Source: Bdellovibrio bacteriovorus (GTDB taxonomy: Bacteria; Bdellovibrionota; Bdellovibrionia; Bdellovibrionales; Bdellovibrionaceae). From it: 64,000 bases of DNA. This document shows, one piece after another, positions 3,442-57,097 of the stretch. The first letter of the stretch is position 1, and every line of letters begins with the position of its first letter. The stretch is taken from positions 186,001-250,000 of the forward strand of contig NZ_LUKF01000019.1 of the NCBI RefSeq assembly GCF_001592755.1, written 5' to 3'. The notes beneath the pieces were generated by a model. It was not told where the DNA came from, searched no databases, and saw nothing but the letters and a program-made list of their open reading frames with translations. The translations under genes and the position numbers were made by a program.

Positions 3442-5516
3442 TATTTATTCTTTACATCCCCGCGGGCGAAGATACTTGCAACGTAGTGTAGAACGTCCGT
3501 CGCAGAGATTTCATCGTACCCGAAGTCCTTGATGAGACGAGTTTTAACGATATCAATTTTTTCTTGAGTATCTTTGTCAGCAACGTTGCTCACTAAAGTC
3601 GTAAGTTTGATGCTGTCTTTTTGATCCTCGAAGAGTTTCAATTCAATCGCTTTATGAAGACGTTCGTTCATTTTGTAGTTGAACTTCTTGCCTTCCAAAG
3701 CCAATGCCCCGATGTAATTCATGATCTCACGACGGAAATCATCTTTACGAGATTCAGGGATCTCGATCTTCTCTTCAATAGATCGCATCAAACGCTCATC
3801 AGGCTCTTCATCATTGCCCGTGAACTGATTACGAACTTTTTCACGTTGAGTGTAAGCTTTCACATTATCGATGTAGTTCGCGCAAAGTCTTTGCATCGCA
3901 CTTTCATCGGCACTGATCGCTCTTTGAACTTCCGCTTTGATGATTTCTTCGTATTCTTGAAGAACCACACCTAGAAGTTCTTTGTACTCGCTCTTAAGCT
4001 CTTCGTTAGAAATCAACGAGTGATTCTTAAGGCCGGATTCAAGTTCTTTAAACACCATGAACGGATTCACAGAGCCTTTATTAGACTGTTGCGCCGCAAC
4101 CAGAGCGTTAGAGAGCTTATCTTGGATATAACGAGCCGAAATACCTTCAAGACCTTCGCGGTTGGCTTCTTTACGAAGCTCACGCACGTTGTCTTCAGTG
4201 TAGTTCGGTAACGTCTTACCGTTATAGAGTTTTAGTTTTTGCAAACGAGTGAGGTTGGCTTTCTTAGGCTTTTCCAAACGAGTCAGAATCGCCCACATCG
4301 CCGCCATTTCAACCGTATGAGGCGCGATACTTAAACCGCGCACTTTTTGAGAATTGAAATCACGTTTGTAGATATTGATCTCATCTCTCCAGCGAGTGAT
4401 ATAAGGAATATCGATCTTCACGGTACGGTCACGAAGGGCTTCCATGAATTCGTTGTCTTGAAGACGACGGTACTCTGGTTCATTCGTGTGTCCGATAATC
4501 ACTTCATCGATATGAGTTTGCGCGAATTTCTTAGGTTTAACTCTGTGTTCTTGTGACGCTCCCAAAAGGTCGTACAAGAAAGCCACGTCAAGTTTAAGAA
4601 CCTCGACGAACTCGATCATACCGCGATTGGCGACGTTGAACTCTCCGTCAAAGTTAAATGCACGTGGGTCTGAATCAGATCCATATTCAGCAATCTTACG
4701 ATAGTTGATATCGCCTGTTAGCTCCGTAGAGTCCTGATTCTTTTCGTCTTTCGGTTGGAAAGTACCAATACCGATACGATCCGCTTCAGAGATGAAAAGT
4801 CTTCTTACACGAACGTGCTCAAGAACTTTCATCAAGTTGCTGTCGTATTTTTCCATCAGTTGCTTAAAGATGAATCGAGATGGCGGGCTTAGCTCCCCGT
4901 CAACATGCACACGGTAAGAACCTTCTTGTCCTTTATTCAAGGACTCATACACACTTTGACGAAGCTCTTCTGGGATTAGAAGCAAAGGCTCTTCATTCAT
5001 CGGCGAAGGGAACACCTTCACACCTTTACCAAGAATGCCATCAAGTTCTAATTTTTCATCAATCCATTCAAACGTGTACATTGCGCCTGATTTGCTGTGC
5101 GAGTAGCGCTCAAGACCTTTTTTCAACATCCGGCAGATTGTAGATTTCGCACTTCCCACCGGACCGTGAAGCAAGATCACACGTTTTTCAGTTCCGTATC
5201 CCAAAGCGGCCGCTTTAAGTACGTTCACCAACTTCATCAACTGAACATCCAATCCGAAGACGGCGTCTTTTCCGTTGTTGAATGTGTCATCGAAGAATTT
5301 ATATCTAACGACTTCTTTTTTGAAATCCAGATATGTTTCTGTGCCTTCTTCAACGATCATGTCGTACATGCGCTGATAAGCATTCCTCGTGATTTTAGGA
5401 TTTTGTTTTACAAGATCGAGATACTCTTCGAAGGTCCCACTCCAATGCTCTTTAGCGTGAGTGCTCGAGTTCTGCCAGTTACTGACCAACGATTGAAGAT
5501 CAAACTTAGAGGCCAT
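3441..5516 (-). CDS. prkA: PrkA family serine protein kinase / AAA+ protein
   Basis: The product (691 residues) has the PrkA AAA domain with a Walker A motif [10 protein letters not shown] at about residues 116-125, and a C-terminal PrkA domain ending with the [17 protein letters not shown] region. PrkA/YeaG proteins are reported serine kinases, and recent work also points to AAA+ protease-like activity; they act in starvation and stress responses. An in-frame GTG 30 bases upstream exists, but GAGGGAGAG directly before the ATG at 5516 fixes the start. The gene heads the prkA-yeaH-spoVR-SUI1 operon. A palindromic element at 5564-5580 sits 47 bases upstream of the ATG and may regulate it. Confidence 0.93.
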
Positions 5517-5563
5517 AATCTCTCCCTCAGGTGCTTGGTGACACACCTACTTCCATAAGATTA

Positions 5564-5580
5564 TGCCTCAATACTAGACG
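5564..5580. promoter_or_regulatory. TGTCT-type interrupted palindrome, weaker copy, upstream of prkA
   Basis: TGCCTCAATACTAGACG lies in the 77-base gap between prkA and the lipoprotein gene. It fits the consensus TGTCTMA-N3-TKAGACA built from four better copies elsewhere in the window, with imperfect arms. It is a candidate operator or activator site; the assignment is inference. Confidence 0.35.
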
Positions 5581-5593
5581 GTTAACGAGTTAA

Positions 5594-6220
5594 TTAATTT
5601 ATTTGTATTGCTTTGAACCCCGAGGGCTGTCTCAATGTGAAAAGGTCATTTTTAAACTGGACTTCAGTCTGGGGCGCTGGGAATTGCCACTGCATTTCAA
5701 ATTGCGGGCCCGTAATAACTACTTTTTTCTCACCTTCATTTCGATTTGACCAAACAACGCGAAGGTTCCTTTGTAAGTTGTCACATTGAGAGATCCAGCC
5801 GTCCGTCGCAAGCGTGCACTGCCACCCGGGGCCACGTACAGGCTCATCAAAAGCAATATTGGCAAGATTCATAGGATGCAATGGCAAATCGATCATACGG
5901 TTGAACGCACGCTCTGAATTTCTGCCATAAAAAAAAGTTTTCTGCGGATAAATCACATAAGAAATTTCAGAAGGACTCATGACCAAGCTAGCAACTTGAT
6001 ACCCCAGCATCGCTGAAATCTCCAATCGTGCTCTTTCATTTTTGATCGCATAAATATCTATATTTAATGACTGCGTCTTATTCTGCTTTTCGTCCTTTAT
6101 AAGGGCTTTGGTTTCCCATTGAGCTTTTTGATAAGCTCCTTGCTTCACCGTCTTAGTGACACAGCCAGATACGATAGCGGTTAATACAATCAGTAAAAAA
6201 TAATTGATAGTTGTCATCAT
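5594..6220 (-). CDS. LolB-like outer-membrane lipoprotein (putative)
   Basis: The 208-residue protein starts with a lipoprotein signal peptide whose lipobox is IVSGC (C20). The rest is beta-rich: QWETKALIKDEKQNKTQSLNIDIYAI, RLEISAMLGYQVASLVMS, then the YVIYPQKTFFYG segment. That layout resembles the LolB / DUF4292 lipoprotein fold, which binds lipoprotein acyl chains at the outer membrane. The similarity is judged from pattern only, so a lipoprotein of unknown function remains possible. It is divergent from the membrane-protein gene at 6238 with only 17 bases between starts, so each promoter probably lies within the other gene. A second ATG directly follows the first. Confidence 0.65.
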   Translation of the reverse strand: MMTTINYFLLIVLTAIVSGCVTKTVKQGAYQKAQWETKALIKDEKQNKTQSLNIDIYAIKNERARLEISAMLGYQVASLVMSPSEISYVIYPQKTFFYGRNSERAFNRMIDLPLHPMNLANIAFDEPVRGPGWQCTLATDGWISQCDNLQRNLRVVWSNRNEGEKKVVITGPQFEMQWQFPAPQTEVQFKNDLFTLRQPSGFKAIQIN

Positions 6221-50034: not shown

Positions 50035-50146
50035 CGTGAATTTCCTCCTTAGGCGTTGGTCTATGAATACTTTTGCACCTACTAAAAGCTTTGATGTTAA
50101 AACTTAAATACGCAACGATTTAATAAAACTTATGGAGGATTCTCGG

Positions 50147-50626
50147 ATGAAAAAGCTAATTTTGTCGTTCATCGTTTTGTTTGGAGCTAATGCTTGGGCT
50201 GCGGGCGACGCAGGTTGTGGTTTAGGGAGCATGGTTATTTCTAAAAACACAAAGCTTCTGCAACTTTTTGCTATGACGACGAATAATACGACTTTGACTC
50301 AACCTTTCGGTATCACTTCAGGTACTTCGGGCTGCAACGCTCACGGTTTGGTTATGGCTGAAAAAGAAGTTCAGTACTTCGTTGAAGTGAATCAAGAAGA
50401 TCTTTCTCGCGAAATGGCTCAAGGCCATGGCGAAAAATTGGCGACTTTGGCGCAAATGAAAGGCTGCCGTAACGAGGCTTCTCAAAAAGCTTTCGGTACT
50501 TTCACGCAAAGCTCTTATGAAAGAATCATCCCTGCAGCTAACACAACAGCTTCAGACCTAGTGCAAAATTTAAACAGAGAGCTTGCGACACAGGGAGATC
50601 TAAATACAATGTGTCATGGTTCGTAA
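50147..50626 (+). CDS. DUF3015-family exported protein
   Basis: From the ATG at 50147 (GGAGG before it) the product has 159 residues with a signal peptide (cleavage ANAWA-AG) and the family segments GDAGCGLGSMVISKNTKLLQLFAMTTN, FGITSGTSGC and FVEVNQEDLSREMAQGHGEKLATLAQMKGC. This is the DUF3015 pattern; the role is unknown. It overlaps the DUF4105 gene by 11 bases, and the two families are commonly adjacent, so they probably act together in the periplasm. Confidence 0.85.
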   Translation: MKKLILSFIVLFGANAWAAGDAGCGLGSMVISKNTKLLQLFAMTTNNTTLTQPFGITSGTSGCNAHGLVMAEKEVQYFVEVNQEDLSREMAQGHGEKLATLAQMKGCRNEASQKAFGTFTQSSYERIIPAANTTASDLVQNLNRELATQGDLNTMCHGS

Positions 50627-52421
50627 TTTCGTCTTTTGTCTTTTTCTTATCGCCCCACTTTTTACGTGGGGCTTTTCCTTAGATAAAGTCTCTGAATATC
50701 AAAAACAAATTATCGAACGCGAAATGTGGAACGATCCTCAATGGATCCGTCTAGGCCACTATCGTAAAACTTGGCTTAGTGATTTTAAGTCTCCGTTGTT
50801 AGGAAACTTCTTTCTTTCTTCACAAGGTTCTGTGAATCCCCGTGAAGAGTTATTAAAGACCATAGAAGTTCTTTTCAGTTCTGAAGAGAGCGCTAAAAAA
50901 TATCAGTGTCATTACCTTGCGCGCACGTCATGGCTGAAAAGCGCGCTTAAGATGGATGCGCAAGACATCGTCGTCTGTCCTGAGCGCGATGCTTGGAAAA
51001 AACAACTGGGTGCCACAGAATTATTTCTAGTCTTTGCCTCAAGTGATCTGAACAGCGCGGGCTCTAGCTTCGGTCATACTTTTCTTCGTCTGCACAACCC
51101 TAAAAATGTGAAGCAGCTAGAACTTCTGGATTATGGAATTAACTATGCGGCGATGACCGGACCCGACGGTGGCGCGCTTTACGCCTTGAAGGGCCTTTTT
51201 GGTTTCTATCCCGGAAATTATTCGATGCTTCCCTATTATCAGAAAATGCGCGAGTACACGAACCTCGAAGGAAGAAACCTTTGGGAGTATCGCTTAAATC
51301 TTTCCGCTTCTGAAGTTTCGTTTTTAATCGATCATTTGCTTGAGCTTGAGGGCAGCTATGCTGATTATTATTTTTTAAGCGATAATTGCTCTCAGCAAAT
51401 TTTGGAACTTATTGAAGTTGCAAAACCACATTTAGATCTGTCGAGCCAGTTCCATGATGCGACAATCCCCTTAGACACCGTAAAGACGTTGAATGATCAC
51501 TGGCTGCTTTCCGATGAAAAACTGCGCCTTTCGCTTCAAACAGAGTGGCGAGCTCGTTACGCAGGATTAAATTTAGCTCAGAAAAATGCGCTTAAGAAAA
51601 TAGTGCGACATCAAGATACTTCTTCACTCGCAAATTTAGACGTGAAAGAAAAGGCCGAAACTCTCGAGGCCTCTATCAGCTATCTAGCGGTGAAAGAATA
51701 TCGAGAGGAAAAAGAATATAAAAATGAGAAATATGCTTTGTCAGTGGCGCGTGCGCGGCTGGGTCCTCAAACATCTCCTGTGCAAATTCCTCAGCCCCGG
51801 TCACCTTTAAGCAGTCCCAATTCCGTGGCCTGGTATTTAGGATACGGTCAATTTGATCATGAAGATTTTTATCGCTTTAAGTTTCGCAGAGCTTTTCACG
51901 ATCTTTTATCCGATGACAGTGGACTTTCGCCATTTTCTCACTTAGAAATCTTGAGTTTTGATTTCCGTTATTTTTCAGAGAATCAAAATTTGGATCTTTA
52001 CGAAGCTGTGCTTTTAAAATCTTTTTCAACGGCTCCCGTGACGACTTTGGATACTCCTGTTTCTTGGCGAGTGGAAGTTGGAACTATGCCGAAACTTGTG
52101 CCCTATTTTAATTTGGCGGCCGGATTTAGTTTTGATTTTTCTTTTCTTGAAGCCACTAGGATTTCATTGCTTGGTGTTTCTGAAAACTTAAATCTGACAG
52201 AGGTTGCTCAACCTCATCTAGGCCCTGAGATTTTACTGATGACAAAGACGCCGGGAATGCGGGCGCTTGTCGGTACCAAGTATCTTTACAATACTTCTGA
52301 AGGCCGTGGCTTTTTTGAAAATAAGGCCGGTGTCTCTTTCGATGTTCTTAATTTCGAAATTCGTCTTGAAGGTCGTGTGAGGGATGAGCTCCCCGAGTTC
52401 ACGGCCTCTGTCATATTCTAG
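50616..52421 (+). CDS. DUF4105 (Lnb N-terminal periplasmic domain) protein
   Basis: The 601-residue product has a signal peptide (LFLIAPLFTWGF) and a DUF4105 domain at about 125-275. The conserved HxxxxxLH segment reads SSFGHTFLRLH and the conserved Cys region SDNCSQQILELI; the His and Cys are the likely catalytic pair by analogy with Lnb, a lipoprotein acyl-transfer enzyme of Gram-positives. The C-terminal half (about 390-600) is beta-rich and may form or sit at an outer-membrane barrel (YFNLAAGFSFDFSF, GFFENKAGVSFDVLNFEIRL). It is coupled to the DUF3015 gene. A role in lipid or lipoprotein modification is inference. Confidence 0.8.
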   Translation: MVRNFVFCLFLIAPLFTWGFSLDKVSEYQKQIIEREMWNDPQWIRLGHYRKTWLSDFKSPLLGNFFLSSQGSVNPREELLKTIEVLFSSEESAKKYQCHYLARTSWLKSALKMDAQDIVVCPERDAWKKQLGATELFLVFASSDLNSAGSSFGHTFLRLHNPKNVKQLELLDYGINYAAMTGPDGGALYALKGLFGFYPGNYSMLPYYQKMREYTNLEGRNLWEYRLNLSASEVSFLIDHLLELEGSYADYYFLSDNCSQQILELIEVAKPHLDLSSQFHDATIPLDTVKTLNDHWLLSDEKLRLSLQTEWRARYAGLNLAQKNALKKIVRHQDTSSLANLDVKEKAETLEASISYLAVKEYREEKEYKNEKYALSVARARLGPQTSPVQIPQPRSPLSSPNSVAWYLGYGQFDHEDFYRFKFRRAFHDLLSDDSGLSPFSHLEILSFDFRYFSENQNLDLYEAVLLKSFSTAPVTTLDTPVSWRVEVGTMPKLVPYFNLAAGFSFDFSFLEATRISLLGVSENLNLTEVAQPHLGPEILLMTKTPGMRALVGTKYLYNTSEGRGFFENKAGVSFDVLNFEIRLEGRVRDELPEFTASVIF

Positions 52422-52445
52422 ACACCGGGGTGCCTAGTTTCGTCC

Positions 52446-52462
52446 TGTCTCACAATGAGACG
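52446..52462. promoter_or_regulatory. TGTCT-type interrupted palindrome upstream of the 943-residue orphan gene
   Basis: TGTCTCACAATGAGACG has perfect GTCTCA/TGAGAC arms around CAA and lies 84 bases before the ATG at 52547. An inverted TGTGAGACA copy of its left half is at 52516-52524. It is a copy of the motif at 13359, 24043 and 55476. Confidence 0.5.
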
Positions 52463-52546
52463 TGCCAAGCTCTTCTATATTTTACCTAAAGGGCCCAAAG
52501 CTTGCTTCTATCCAGTGTGAGACACAACCGTCTTCAAGGAGCAGCC

Positions 52547-55378
52547 ATGAAATGGTTCCAAAAAACACTTACTGCGATCGCCACGTTCAATATGGTATTT
52601 TCGCCAGTTATTGCTTCGGCTGCCCCAGAGTGGACGGAAAAAGATAAGGCGCAATTAGCTCACTATCGCGATTACTTGGAACCACTCGGATACCGCCTGA
52701 CATTAGATCCTAATGAAAAGAAGGCGTTGGTTTACGATAAGAATACTAATAAGTTAGCTATGGAAGTTCCTTTTGCTGAAGAAGGTGAACTTCGCAAATA
52801 CTCTCCGAAATCTTTAAATCATATGCTGATGGAAGAAATGGTGCGCGTAAAGCAAGCTTCGAAAGCTTCTTGGTCGCATTCTGTAAGAAACCTTCCGGCA
52901 GAATCTGCGATCTTCTTCGTTGCAATGGGTGCCGTGGTTGCGGGTCAGCTTATTACAAACTATTCGCAAAACCCAATTGCAATGAAACAACACATTGAGC
53001 ACTCCCTTTCACCTATTGGTGTTTTTGGCTTCTTTACTTTCATGTATTCACAAGGTGTTACGGCCAATGTTCTTTCTATGTATATGAAAAATCCAAAGTT
53101 CCATCACATGATTCCTTACTTGGGGATGACAGTCGGAGCTTTCTTGCAAACTTATCTTTCTCAAGTGGCTTCTGATCCAAATGTTATGGCGTGTGCGAAA
53201 GTCATGATGGGCGGTAAGGTCTCTGAAAAAGACCAAGCCAATGGCATTGATGCTGATCCATGCTCTAAAGCCTATGAATACCTAGTTCTAAAAAAGAAAC
53301 TTTGGGAGTTCGCACCGGGCATCGTTTCTATGTTGATCTCTTCAGGTCTTGCGGGTGTGGCTCAGTCGGTTATTACTAAGACTGTATTGCGCATCACAGG
53401 CGTAGACATCGCTCTTTGGTTGGTTCCAGGCACAATGCACCTGAAAGGAATCCGTCTTCTTTTAGTAAAAGGCTTACAAATCACAGCTTTCGTAGCCATC
53501 GACATGTGGCTAAACCGCATCGTGGTCTCGACATGGAAGAATATGTACGACGGTGCTGATTTTTATGACGTCAATGATCGCTTGAACGACAAAATGAATC
53601 TTATGAAGAAAAGCCGTTGGGCCGCTGACGACAAAGATCTTCAGGCAGAAATGAAAGACTTCCGTAAAAAGATGACGGACTGGCGTATGATGAATATGTC
53701 GGAGGTGTATGAGGCTCACTCGAACTGGTCAGAGGCTTTGCACCAAATGACATCTATGTTTAATACGAGCTATTCGTTCTATGATTCATTTATCTCGGAA
53801 GTACAGAACGCCAGAAACGATCAAACTCCATATAAATTCCTAAAAGCTACGTATCCGTATAACGGTGTGACAGCGAAAGGACTGCCTGACGATAAGAAAG
53901 ACCTTCTTTTCGTGAAACCACAATTCATTGAAAGCCTTCAGCACGAAACTGTTCAAGACACGGTTGCTGCAACCGAGGAATTGTTGAAGGGTGAAAAAGG
54001 AAAATACCTTTACGACTTAGAGAAGAAGAAATTAAATTCGATCCTTACAAAACTACGTTCACAAGAGCGCGAAACGGTTGGCGCAGGTCTGTCCGAGCTG
54101 TACGAAGAAGTTGGTCGCGCGATGCAAAACGTTTCTGTATCTATGGAATACCGTGATGTGCTTAGAACGATTTATGGTTCTATGGGTAAGCCGTATCCAA
54201 TGATGGAGCCAGGCCGCGGTTGGGTTGAATCTTATGCTAATGCTCCAATGAACGAAGAAACCGTGAAGGGTGCGAAGTACTATCGTCAGGTAGGCCTTTT
54301 CATGACTCCAAAAGTAACTGACTATCTGGTTATGCAAATGCTATGTGGTCCCGACGTAGAAAACGGTGACCATGCAATTAAAAATTCTCGCGGTTATCCG
54401 TCTGTATTCTTGCCGCCACAGATCGGAAACCCAGCGGACCAATTTAATGCCTGCAATCATTTAGGTATGGCTCCCTTGATGCCGAAGGATATCTATAAAT
54501 ATCCTCTTCAGACTGCAACTAAGAAGCAATATCAAGGTGCTATTGACTATCTTGTTCACGAGACACGTCCATCTGTAATTGGTACGGCCGAGCAACCAAA
54601 CTTCCAAAACTGGTGGAAAACTAGAACGGAAGCCCAAATGCAAAAAGCATTTGAAGAGTACGGAAAAAGCTATGATGAAATCGTCGCAAAGATGGTGAAG
54701 GCAGTTTACTATCCTGGTCGTAAATTCTTCAATGGTCGTCCTTTGGTCACGAACCCGATGAAGACATTAAAAATCTATTTCGACTCGAAAACTCGCAATC
54801 GCTACTTCGAAGGCGGTCCCGTTTACAACGGTGCTATGAACTCTGCATTCCAAGAAGAAAGAGTGTATCTTTCTATCCTGGGAGATTTGTTGCAACCCGC
54901 TTCCGAGTTCAACATGGATATCGCACACATCCTTGAAAAGGATCTGACACACCCTGCTTTGAAAGAAGTTGAAAATCAATTCGCCGTTCTAAATGGAATG
55001 ATGAAACGGATTAAGGTCGCAAATAAAGAGGGCCGTGAGGTTGTCGAATCAGACCTTGAGAACTACGAGCTTGAAGAGCAACTTCAGAATATCCAAGGAG
55101 CTATTAAGAAACTTTCAACAGCTCTGGGGGTAGGTGACGAGCAAGAAGGTGCCGTTGTTCAATTGAACAAGCAACAACGCAATGTCGCCGTTACAGCTTT
55201 GGAACAGCTTCAAGGTTTAGCTACTGAAGTAATGATGTATGGCTCAATGGCGAACGCTGTAAGCTGGAGCAAAATCAGAAACTTGAAGAAAATGGATATC
55301 GAACAACAAAAGTTTAATAACGAAATCCAAGCACGCCTGGATGCTATGAGAGGCATTTCAATGCCGGGTAAGCACTAG
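52547..55378 (+). CDS. Large exported or membrane-associated orphan protein
   Basis: From the ATG at 52547 (AAGGAGC before it) the product has 943 residues and a signal peptide (MKWFQKTLTAIATFNMVFSPVIASA). Several hydrophobic segments lie between about 95 and 325 (AESAIFFVAMGAVVAGQLI, IGVFGFFTFMYSQGV, LWEFAPGIVSMLISSGLAGVAQS, GLQITAFVAIDMWLN), suggesting four to six membrane passes. The remaining 600 residues are helical, highly charged and Met-rich, ending with a coiled-coil-like stretch (DLENYELEEQLQNIQGAIKKL). I recognise no family. It has its own upstream motif and terminator, so it is a single-gene unit. Confidence 0.75.
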   Translation: MKWFQKTLTAIATFNMVFSPVIASAAPEWTEKDKAQLAHYRDYLEPLGYRLTLDPNEKKALVYDKNTNKLAMEVPFAEEGELRKYSPKSLNHMLMEEMVRVKQASKASWSHSVRNLPAESAIFFVAMGAVVAGQLITNYSQNPIAMKQHIEHSLSPIGVFGFFTFMYSQGVTANVLSMYMKNPKFHHMIPYLGMTVGAFLQTYLSQVASDPNVMACAKVMMGGKVSEKDQANGIDADPCSKAYEYLVLKKKLWEFAPGIVSMLISSGLAGVAQSVITKTVLRITGVDIALWLVPGTMHLKGIRLLLVKGLQITAFVAIDMWLNRIVVSTWKNMYDGADFYDVNDRLNDKMNLMKKSRWAADDKDLQAEMKDFRKKMTDWRMMNMSEVYEAHSNWSEALHQMTSMFNTSYSFYDSFISEVQNARNDQTPYKFLKATYPYNGVTAKGLPDDKKDLLFVKPQFIESLQHETVQDTVAATEELLKGEKGKYLYDLEKKKLNSILTKLRSQERETVGAGLSELYEEVGRAMQNVSVSMEYRDVLRTIYGSMGKPYPMMEPGRGWVESYANAPMNEETVKGAKYYRQVGLFMTPKVTDYLVMQMLCGPDVENGDHAIKNSRGYPSVFLPPQIGNPADQFNACNHLGMAPLMPKDIYKYPLQTATKKQYQGAIDYLVHETRPSVIGTAEQPNFQNWWKTRTEAQMQKAFEEYGKSYDEIVAKMVKAVYYPGRKFFNGRPLVTNPMKTLKIYFDSKTRNRYFEGGPVYNGAMNSAFQEERVYLSILGDLLQPASEFNMDIAHILEKDLTHPALKEVENQFAVLNGMMKRIKVANKEGREVVESDLENYELEEQLQNIQGAIKKLSTALGVGDEQEGAVVQLNKQQRNVAVTALEQLQGLATEVMMYGSMANAVSWSKIRNLKKMDIEQQKFNNEIQARLDAMRGISMPGKH

Positions 55379-55406
55379 GATACTAAGCTAAAATAAAACG
55401 ATTTTG

Positions 55407-55437
55407 AAAAAGGCATGGCGACTGCATGCCTTTTTTC
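55407..55437 (+). terminator. Intrinsic terminator of the 943-residue orphan gene
   Basis: AGGCATG (55411-55417) pairs with CATGCCT (55425-55431); A-T pairs extend the stem and a run of Ts follows. Confidence 0.8.
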
Positions 55438-55475
55438 GTTTCTGAATAATCCTGTAATATTAGAAGCTTAGAGTC

Positions 55476-55492
55476 TGTCTCAGAACGAGATC
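55476..55492. promoter_or_regulatory. TGTCT-type interrupted palindrome upstream of the 220-residue orphan gene
   Basis: TGTCTCAGAACGAGATC matches the copy at 52446 in 11 of 17 positions, including CTCA, the AA centre and the GAGA arm. It lies 133 bases before the ATG at 55626. Confidence 0.42.
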
Positions 55493-55625
55493 CGACTAAC
55501 AAAAAACGCTCTCCGTTAGTTCTCTGACACTTCAATTTCAACTAATGCGTATAGACGCCCTAAGGACCTGGCGAAGCTTTTGCTTATTAGTTCATTGTAT
55601 CGATTTACAAAATTAGGGAGAGAGT

Positions 55626-56288
55626 ATGAAAAAGGCATTTGTATCAGGAATTATCGTTTTAGCATCTTCATTCGCATTGGCTGCTCCAGTTAAGACTACT
55701 CGCGAGGCTCTTGTTGAGTACAATAAACAGTGGAAAGAATATGTTTATGGAAAGTCAGGCTCTGCGGCTAAAACGGCTGATATGGGTATCGCTAAAAACC
55801 GCATCGTTGAACAACTAGGTGTTCACGGTCGCGCTTCTGAGATTAAAAATGCTCTAAGCGGAAATGTCAGCGCCAAACACATGGACGCCTTCGTTTCTAT
55901 TATCGCAGCTAAAAAGCTTGCCGCTGAATGGTCTAAAACTGACTCGGCGGAAGCTCAATCCCTAAACGCTGCTGCTGACGCAAGCACCAAAGCATTGTTG
56001 AATCGTTCTTTAAGAGACGTCCCAAAGAAAACAGAGCTTGGTGAAAACTTGACGGTCGTAACTGAAGCTTTGAATAAAATTGAAGAAATGCCTGCCGAAA
56101 TCCTAACAAACTTCTCAAAGGCAGAGCGTGATTCTTACACTCTAGTTTTAGAGAAGTATGACGAAATCAACAGCCGCGTTACTTCCCTTAAGGCTGAAGA
56201 CAACTTCGTTCAAGCAATCATGGAAGTGAAAAAAGTTGATCGCGCGAAAGCTCTTGAGATCGTAAGAAAACTTAAAGAGTGCGTTTAA
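55626..56288 (+). CDS. Small exported helical orphan protein
   Basis: The 220-residue product has a signal peptide (cleavage ALA-AP) and an almost wholly helical mature part rich in Lys, Glu and Ala (NALSGNVSAKHMDAFVSIIAAKKLAAEW, KVDRAKALEIVRKLKECV) with a single Cys near the end. No family is recognised. GGGAGAGAGT precedes the ATG. It follows the larger orphan and shares its upstream motif, which suggests common control. A bidirectional terminator follows. Confidence 0.75.
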   Translation: MKKAFVSGIIVLASSFALAAPVKTTREALVEYNKQWKEYVYGKSGSAAKTADMGIAKNRIVEQLGVHGRASEIKNALSGNVSAKHMDAFVSIIAAKKLAAEWSKTDSAEAQSLNAAADASTKALLNRSLRDVPKKTELGENLTVVTEALNKIEEMPAEILTNFSKAERDSYTLVLEKYDEINSRVTSLKAEDNFVQAIMEVKKVDRAKALEIVRKLKECV

Positions 56289-56311
56289 TCTAAATTGTAA
56301 ATCGAACCACC

Positions 56312-56345
56312 AAAGCCGAAGCTTGCCAGCTTCGGCTTTTTTATT
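56312..56345. terminator. Bidirectional intrinsic terminator
   Basis: AAAGCCGAAGCT (56312-56323) pairs perfectly with AGCTTCGGCTTT (56328-56339) with a TGCC loop, followed by Ts. It separates the 220-residue orphan gene and motB. Confidence 0.9.
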
Positions 56346-56347
56346 TT

Positions 56348-57097
56348 CTAGATCTCGACTTTTTTATCGTCGGTCACGATAAAGATTTCGATACGACGGT
56401 TCATGGAACGATGTTCTTCGGTGTCGTTGGGGACGATAGGTTTCTGATCGCCGTAGGAAATAGAAATAAATCTTTTTGCATCCAGCTGATGCACTTTCAC
56501 GAAATAGCGAACCACTGCAGATGCGCGACCGCCTGCCAACTCCCAATTGCTTGGAAACAGACTGTCTTGGATTGGTGTATCGTCCGTGTGACCTTCGACG
56601 ATGATGCGTTTTGTATTTGATTTAAGAACTTCGGCCACTTTGTCTAAAGAACTTAAAGCCGAGGCTTTCAACTTAGCAGAGCCCGATGGAAAAAACGTCG
56701 ATGCAGCCAACGCGATACGAACACCAACAGCATCATGATAGATATCTTGGATGGATTCTTTCTTTTGCTGAGCACCCATGGACTTATCTAAAGAACGAAC
56801 CACGTAATCTTCAACTTCGCCGGGTCCGCCTTTTTTAGGGAAGTTCCCTAAAGGCATCACGAGTTCAGCAATAGCATTTTCAAGCTCGTTGCCCGCGCTG
56901 TCGGACCCACCCCGTCCTGTCAGACGTAGTTCAAGCTTGATGGAATCTTCAAATTCTTTTTGCTTTTCAGCGTCTTCGGTTGAGGTTGCATACATCACCA
57001 CAAAGAAAGCAAAAAGAAGCGTAATAAAATCCGCATAAGAGACCAGCCATCTCTCGTGATTTTCATGCTCTTCATGTTTCTTGTGTTTTCTTGCCAT
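56348..57097 (-). CDS. motB: Flagellar stator protein MotB
   Basis: The 249-residue product has one membrane segment with the proton-binding Asp (D23) in SYADFITLLFAFFVVMYATS, and a C-terminal OmpA-like peptidoglycan-binding domain with KRIIVEGHTDDTP, NWELAGGRASAVVRYF and NRRIEIFI. With MotA it forms the stator that powers the flagellum. The Asp and the lack of sodium-type features suit proton coupling, but this is not decisive. It starts 12 bases after motA. Confidence 0.95.
   Translation of the reverse strand: MARKHKKHEEHENHERWLVSYADFITLLFAFFVVMYATSTEDAEKQKEFEDSIKLELRLTGRGGSDSAGNELENAIAELVMPLGNFPKKGGPGEVEDYVVRSLDKSMGAQQKKESIQDIYHDAVGVRIALAASTFFPSGSAKLKASALSSLDKVAEVLKSNTKRIIVEGHTDDTPIQDSLFPSNWELAGGRASAVVRYFVKVHQLDAKRFISISYGDQKPIVPNDTEEHRSMNRRIEIFIVTDDKKVEI

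Follow-up and report, generated by a model that had tools for sequence, protein, structure and literature searches.

In a 64,000-nucleotide stretch of the Bdellovibrio bacteriovorus genome (contig NZ_LUKF01000019.1, positions 186,001 to 250,000; hereafter the window) we analysed ORF943, which encodes an exported orphan protein of 943 amino acids (aa; 52547..55378, + strand, stop included), together with p220, which encodes a small exported partner of 220 aa (55626..56288, +). We consider the chances about even that the two proteins constitute a disulfide-stabilised envelope complex under sigma54 control. At the sequence level, both are exported in design, their genes travel together, and their cysteines are mostly paired in ORF943 versus single and terminal in p220. 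Lineage-specific orphans as such are common, and the newness of ORF943 rests on the absence of a family or of a significant fold match. Placed in an exported two-gene system that spans the class, with a conserved partner, a defined promoter and a named candidate activator, an anonymous orphan would become testable.

ORF943 was found by open reading frame (ORF) scanning, and its homologues by tblastn and profile searches. It starts with ATG and runs through 943 uninterrupted codons, with an AAGGAG ribosome-binding site 5′ of the start in the window, bearing out the real frame given at the same coordinates (52547-55378, +) in the initial annotation. The exported design claimed there was also confirmed, by a signal-peptide-like N terminus (residues ~1-26, ...SPVIASA/AP; 52547..52624, +) with a hydrophobic peak at residues 8-26; this was assigned from hydropathy and read by eye. 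There follow a conserved helical domain of weak hydrophobicity (residues 84-352; 52796..53602, +), delimited by an alignment of 44 homologues, hydrophobicity and a structure model, and a long helical remainder (residues 353-943; 53603..55375, +), delimited by the model and alignment. The remainder had been described as charged and helical; a composition count of 76 K+R and 77 D+E in residues 346-943 and the helical model agreed with this. The full model had predicted local distance difference test (pLDDT) blocks mostly of 75-94 in residues 346-943, and was confident over most of 330-930 apart from a drop around 721-760, and poor over most of 70-313.

The failure to recognise a family also held up in family, sequence and fold searches. 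Pfam gave no family for ORF943 at the curated cut-off, with rows far below it, PHROG gave no match, and NCBIfam gave none to the window protein, only weak rows that each matched one of 25 members. No PDB sequence matched below E 0.2 in a profile search with ORF943 or in searches with its 84-352 domain or p220, and a set of 72,556 plasmid records and 50,697 phage records contained no match at E 0.001. A significant match to a widespread family was looked for, and none was found in the family libraries searched. When the proposed structure prediction was carried out, Foldseek found no PDB match at E ≤ 0.001 for the full model or for the 84-352 domain, which was modelled alone with 44 sequences at low confidence (pLDDT 69.5) and with helices throughout. 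The best structural Z values, 8.8 and 6.3, were at the usual level for helical bundles; fold relatives including talin-rod and other bundle rows were set aside, since they stood at this ordinary level and none was significant. Comparison with viral-protein structures yielded no ORF943 match passing E 0.001.

We then considered the evidence for the partner. ORF943 had been called a single-gene unit, which did not stand because the small exported gene at 55626-56288 is a conserved neighbour, though ORF943 has promoter-like elements of its own. The p220 protein has a lone cysteine next to its last residue (...KLKECV; codon 56280..56282, +, read from the sequence), and a partner was accordingly defined as a small exported neighbour whose mature part has exactly one cysteine, within the last 1-7 residues. 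Across 27 distinct loci (the window; L081, L082, L085-L087, L088, which is the same locus as L093, and L089; L090-L092 and L094-L109; L080, L083 and L084 lay outside this count), such a partner was present 3′ of the big gene in 25, with lengths of 189-245 aa after start choice. A further set of 20 comprised 19 distant loci (L175 was left out at a contig end) and the out-of-class L176, and here 13 had a partner (L156-L158, L160, L161, L163, L164, L166, L171-L174 and L176), those of L157, L161 and L172 with a further cysteine inside the signal peptide. The L159 neighbour, with a tail cysteine and two others, was not counted. In the out-of-class L156 and L176 the partner was present on the opposite strand and in a different gene order; that of L156 was missed by a downstream-only scan and counted once both sides were scanned. 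The definition was specific: p220 was the sole ORF it selected in the 64-kb window, and of the two ORFs it selected in 77 kb of a relative, one was again p220. Furthermore, the pairing was kept at five loci with no peptidyl-prolyl isomerase (PPIase), GlnE or Mot gene in the stretch examined (L096-L098, L108 and L109). Together these sequence comparisons provide strong evidence that ORF943 and p220 are a pair. They resemble known pairs of a large exported scaffold and a small envelope partner in having adjacent genes with both products exported, and differ from them in giving no sequence or significant fold match; to our knowledge, the lone terminal cysteine has no counterpart in the small partner of such pairs.

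The L156 locus had two further features (1192-2562 and 4831-5976): the out-of-class homologue adjoins a transglutaminase-elicitor-like exported protein, and a transposase-like gene (a weak rve match) lies between the homologue and the p220-like partner.

The cysteines of ORF943 were then compared among family members. C216 (codon 53192..53194, +) and C239 (codon 53261..53263, +) were invariant, being kept in 44/44 aligned members, and past residue 30 the window protein has only these and a second pair, C600/C636. The latter was lost jointly in L027-L029, and extra cysteines in other members, around 350/358 and close to the C terminus, were mostly gained or lost pairwise. The paired cysteines suggest disulfides, and therefore that the C-terminal part of ORF943 is extracytoplasmic.

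To describe how the pair may be controlled, we turn to the upstream region. A palindrome, GTCTCACAATGAGAC, lies 100 bp before the ORF943 ATG (52447..52461, no strand assigned) as a candidate activator site, and 29 bp after it there is a sigma54-type −24/−12 box of the form GG-N10-GC, GGGCCCAAAGCTTGCT (52491..52506, +). GG-N10-GC was the best box within 100 bp of the ORF943 start in 30/30 loci (L001-L030), where 9.4% of random windows reached the lowest of the box scores and 0.9% the commonest. The palindrome was found at 10/12 or better upstream of the start in 29/30 loci, and its spacing from the ATG was 99-102 bp in 15/24 genus loci. A sigma70-type scan of 52380-56360 gave no match, against a mean of 6.2 in shuffles. 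Upstream of p220 we found a second, weaker palindrome, GTCTCAGAACGAGAT (10/12; 55477..55491, no strand assigned), and a sigma54-type box, TGGCGAAGCTTTTGCT (55569..55584, +), with GG-N10-GC the best match in only 3/25 partner genes examined. The own genome has one rpoN, and rpoN was present in 129/143 class genomes. These data amount to good evidence, within the genus, for a predicted sigma54 promoter of ORF943. The arrangement is like that of NtrC/NifA/FlbD-type sigma54 enhancer-binding regulons in its GG-N10-GC box, its upstream dyad and a candidate activator with Sigma54_activat and HTH_8 domains.

The palindrome had been taken for an element belonging to ORF943, and this was overturned by its copies throughout the genome and genus, which rule out a private site. 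The pattern GTCTCANNNTGAGAC occurs in 17 exact copies in the 3.66-Mb own genome, compared with 0 for a reversed control pattern, and with one mismatch allowed the counts were 76 versus 6. Over 24 genus genomes there were 346 copies versus 4 for the control, and over 138 out-of-class genomes (the number listed for a phylum sample of equal size, 191) 24 versus 17, which indicates that the palindrome is mainly class-bound, like the ORF943 family. Inside the class, none or one was found in genus g6, in G025, in G033 and in several small genomes. In the parts of the literature consulted we found neither the palindrome nor ORF943 described, and no sigma54 target genes reported for Bdellovibrio.

A candidate reader of the palindrome was found among the 12 strong Sigma54_activat proteins of the own genome. 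This 518-aa activator (L114:639-2195; own genome C1:405224-406780) has a Sigma54_activat domain and a Fis-type HTH_8 domain, and a palindrome (11/12) lies 138 bp upstream of its own gene. A relative was present in 59/59 genomes at 67-100% identity, and the palindrome stood at 10/12 or better upstream of 22/29 orthologues, compared with 0.7% in shuffles (the start of L141 was not found). Upstream of the other 11 strong activators in the own genome the palindrome was absent (0/11, best 9/12). Among the NCBIfam matches listed for the activator (n=25), none reached a cut-off. Because of this possible autoregulation, the 518-aa activator is the likeliest reader of the palindrome, and a fair candidate for its predicted regulator.

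The mechanism by which the parts would work together is a weak proposal. In the oxidising envelope, ORF943 would form a long helical scaffold stabilised by disulfides and may contact a membrane via its weakly hydrophobic domain. The p220 protein would dock on ORF943 or dimerise, and its tail cysteine could form an intermolecular disulfide, locking the complex. Transcription would depend on sigma54 RNA polymerase together with an enhancer-binding protein. The 518-aa activator is the most likely such protein; it would bind GTCTCANNNTGAGAC, including the copy before its own gene, and may couple ORF943 and p220 to a wider regulon. On the proposed mechanism the complex would help to organise the cell envelope over the life cycle; this function, like any role in predation, is an inference.

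Several findings weigh against such a complex under sigma54 control. A p220-like partner was missing beside L091 and L088/L093 in the first set and at six loci of the further set (L162, L165 and L167-L170). Identity to p220 was only 10-22% in 20/23 aligned partners and a profile did not link the distant p220s (best E 0.16), so what argues for their common descent is their place, size, signal peptide and tail cysteine. Odd cysteine totals occurred in 5/25 rows of the 25-row profile (A1) and in 3/20 of L090-L109. Among 20 more distant ORF943 loci, scanned with automatic start choice (the window row was unused, its start being shifted), the palindrome was found at 10/12 or better in only 10, versus 4.4% by chance, and GG-N10-GC was the best match in only 9. 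We also make no claim of a regulon of exported proteins: at sites with a gene start nearby, a strict predictor placed exported genes at 12/16 exact and 12/25 one-mismatch palindromes, against control rates of 77% in the window and 40% in 77 kb of a relative. Furthermore, the ORF943 palindrome lies only ~60 bp upstream of the expected transcription start, close for an enhancer and unlike NtrC/NifA/FlbD-type regulons, from which the occurrence of the palindrome away from sigma54 boxes also departs. A sigma54 box with a score of at least 18 was found within 120 bp of only 5/17 exact palindromes (6/17 at 17.5), and near one-mismatch palindromes in 0/33 at 18 and 4/33 at 17.5. Since sites lie near sigma54 boxes, near sigma28-like boxes or near neither, the palindrome is not tied to one sigma factor, and a sigma54 activator leaves some of them unexplained.

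Another regulator, not a sigma54 activator, might read the palindrome at sigma54, sigma28 and other promoters, with the 518-aa activator gene merely a target; we hold this to be possible but doubtful. The sigma28-like sequence CCGATA was found near 5/17 exact palindromes (P 0.02) and 8/33 one-mismatch palindromes (P 0.013), with 9.9% expected in each case. An exact palindrome also lies in an flhG-like gene (L037:978-992), ~200 bp 5′ of a fliA-like start (both names by inspection), suggesting that fliA itself may share the control. Against a different regulator, the conserved palindrome stands before one activator of twelve, and strong sigma54 boxes near 5/17 exact sites contrast with 0/2000 control positions in the window, these positions overlapping one another.

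In the own genome, the fibre-like surface genes L036 and L049 have LTYQGRI near the start. Both have the palindrome, which is exact in L036 and carries one mismatch in L049, and in both CCGATA lies between it and the gene start.

A sigma54 regulon read by the 518-aa activator would resemble the FliA (sigma28) attack-phase programme of Bdellovibrio, as described in the consulted part of PMC3627812, in being a lineage-wide promoter class for surface and other genes. It differs in its box, and no word beginning 'palindrom-' occurs in the text of that paper we searched. A third of the mapped attack-phase promoters lack a FliA box according to the same text, which reports no strong motif in those. 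The 518-aa activator is a candidate regulator beside FliA. A more ambitious reading, which we judge unlikely, is that ORF943, a giant helical protein stabilised by disulfides, and the cysteine-tailed p220 locked to it make up an undescribed machine of the envelope or of prey contact, with the 518-aa activator acting through GTCTCANNNTGAGAC as a master switch of the lineage. If true, the switch would govern the machine, exported fibre-like proteins, fliA and part of the promoters with no known motif. Over 40% of the Bdellovibrio genome is uncharacterised or hypothetical according to the portion of PMC6561027 consulted.

We wanted to know how far the family extends. By tblastn, homologues were found in 74/99 relatives, including 24/24 within the genus, own genome counted. 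The A1 profile matched 103/143 class genomes (79/105 of the high-quality ones). In a phylum sample it matched 40/191 genomes, with a single one, G200, from outside the class, where 138 out-of-class genomes are listed for a sample of this size. The A3 profile, built from 44 rows over residues 84-352, matched no more of the class (102/143), and in a 290-genome phylum sample gave 75 matches, two of them, G200 and G300, outside the class. One peptide pattern picked out ten named public contigs, which are labelled Bdellovibrio or Bdellovibrionaceae apart from one labelled Proteobacteria and one labelled Oligoflexia. Lengths ranged from 851 to 1738 aa within the class (L025 was cut by a contig end); the two homologues outside it have about 690 aa. 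No internal stops occurred within the listed tblastn matches; the profile search counted stops within the matches of G035, G037 and G040. These searches support a family nearly confined to one class. The suggestion that the protein may be specific to predatory lineages was thus borne out as a restriction at class level, and predator specificity is a conjecture, with 40/143 class genomes unmatched. ORF943 might also be a lineage-specific protein of the envelope that takes no part in predation, a reading that is tenable but rather improbable in our estimate; it is favoured by homologues in very small class genomes of 1.2-1.6 Mb (G109, G110, G116 and G117).

In one genome the homologue was broken into two frames (L095:1078-4920), with the adjoining p220-like ORF intact.

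It is also conceivable, though unlikely, that ORF943 is secreted and, on invasion, puts its hydrophobic domain into the membrane or cell envelope of the prey, p220 serving as an escort or plug. The export of ORF943 with a weakly hydrophobic helical domain, and the strong divergence and wide length range of the family, would suit this. A count of genes in a relative's genome, which takes MotAB as Bd0144/Bd0145, would place the pair at about Bd0169-Bd0180, and identity with Bd0173 is possible but unproven. In the part of PMC12546842 consulted, Bd0173 is highlighted as an uncharacterised signal-peptide protein that belongs to the entry cluster and was found in empty prey ghosts. Gene order, read with these MotAB tags, makes it unlikely that the pair includes Bd0150 or Bd0161, named as prey-attachment genes in the portion of PMC6561027 consulted. 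Against insertion into prey, solved folds gave no significant match, the HD100 locus tag of the pair could not be fixed, and the Tol, GlnE and PPIase neighbours are in keeping with a role in the envelope of the cell itself.

The membrane part of ORF943 was examined with a biological-hydrophobicity scale (segments past residue 40 at 2.5 or below counted as transmembrane-like). Segment 118-136 scored 1.8, the level of the weakest MotA helix (MotA range 0.1 to 1.8), and two weaker segments, 258-276 and 304-322, scored 3.3 and 3.1; 17/44 aligned members, including 12/19 distant ones, had no segment at or below 2.5. The scale is rough, as expected TolQ and PAP2 helices scored 3.9 and 4.0 and 4 of about 6 helices expected in PAP2 were detected, so up to three membrane segments are still possible. 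Within these limits, neither hydropathy nor the scale supported the four to six membrane helices proposed in the initial annotation, and the conserved feature is a weakly hydrophobic helical domain of ~270 residues. It is improbable that ORF943 is polytopic in the inner membrane and carries a periplasmic domain, a reading near that of the initial annotation: its one transmembrane-like and two weaker segments, the TolQ and PAP2 helices that score no better, and the helices predicted throughout residues 84-352 would allow it, and the 17/44 members with no qualifying segment and the low confidence of the domain model speak against it.

The remaining observations concern the genes around the pair. 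The gene order in the window runs Suf, TolQ, TolR, TolA-like, TolB, GlnE, a periplasmic PPIase, four small-to-medium genes, ORF943, p220, MotB and MotA, with the Suf, Tol, GlnE, PPIase and Mot names assigned by inspection. A hairpin with a T run, AAGGCATG...CATGCCTT, lies between ORF943 and p220 as a possible terminator (55407..55436, +, by eye); a consensus scan did not list it. GlnE and the PPIase 5′ and MotBA 3′ were also found in L081 and L085-L087, and a PPIase was near the ORF943 homologue in many distant loci. In the genome of a relative (L110-L113), where the pair lies at 160205-162970 and 159377-160078, MotAB is 30 kb from the ORF943 pair with the activator gene (141137-142690) between, whereas in the window MotAB is adjacent. 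The four genes between the PPIase and ORF943 include an Lnb_N protein (Pfam); this Lnb_N-DUF7840-DUF7843 protein (50616-52421), just 5′ of ORF943, overlaps a DUF3015 gene (50132-50626), and the two are not at the corresponding place in L085-L087 and L089. In L099, L102, L103 and L106, two tandem PPIase-like genes stand beside the ORF943 homologue instead of one.

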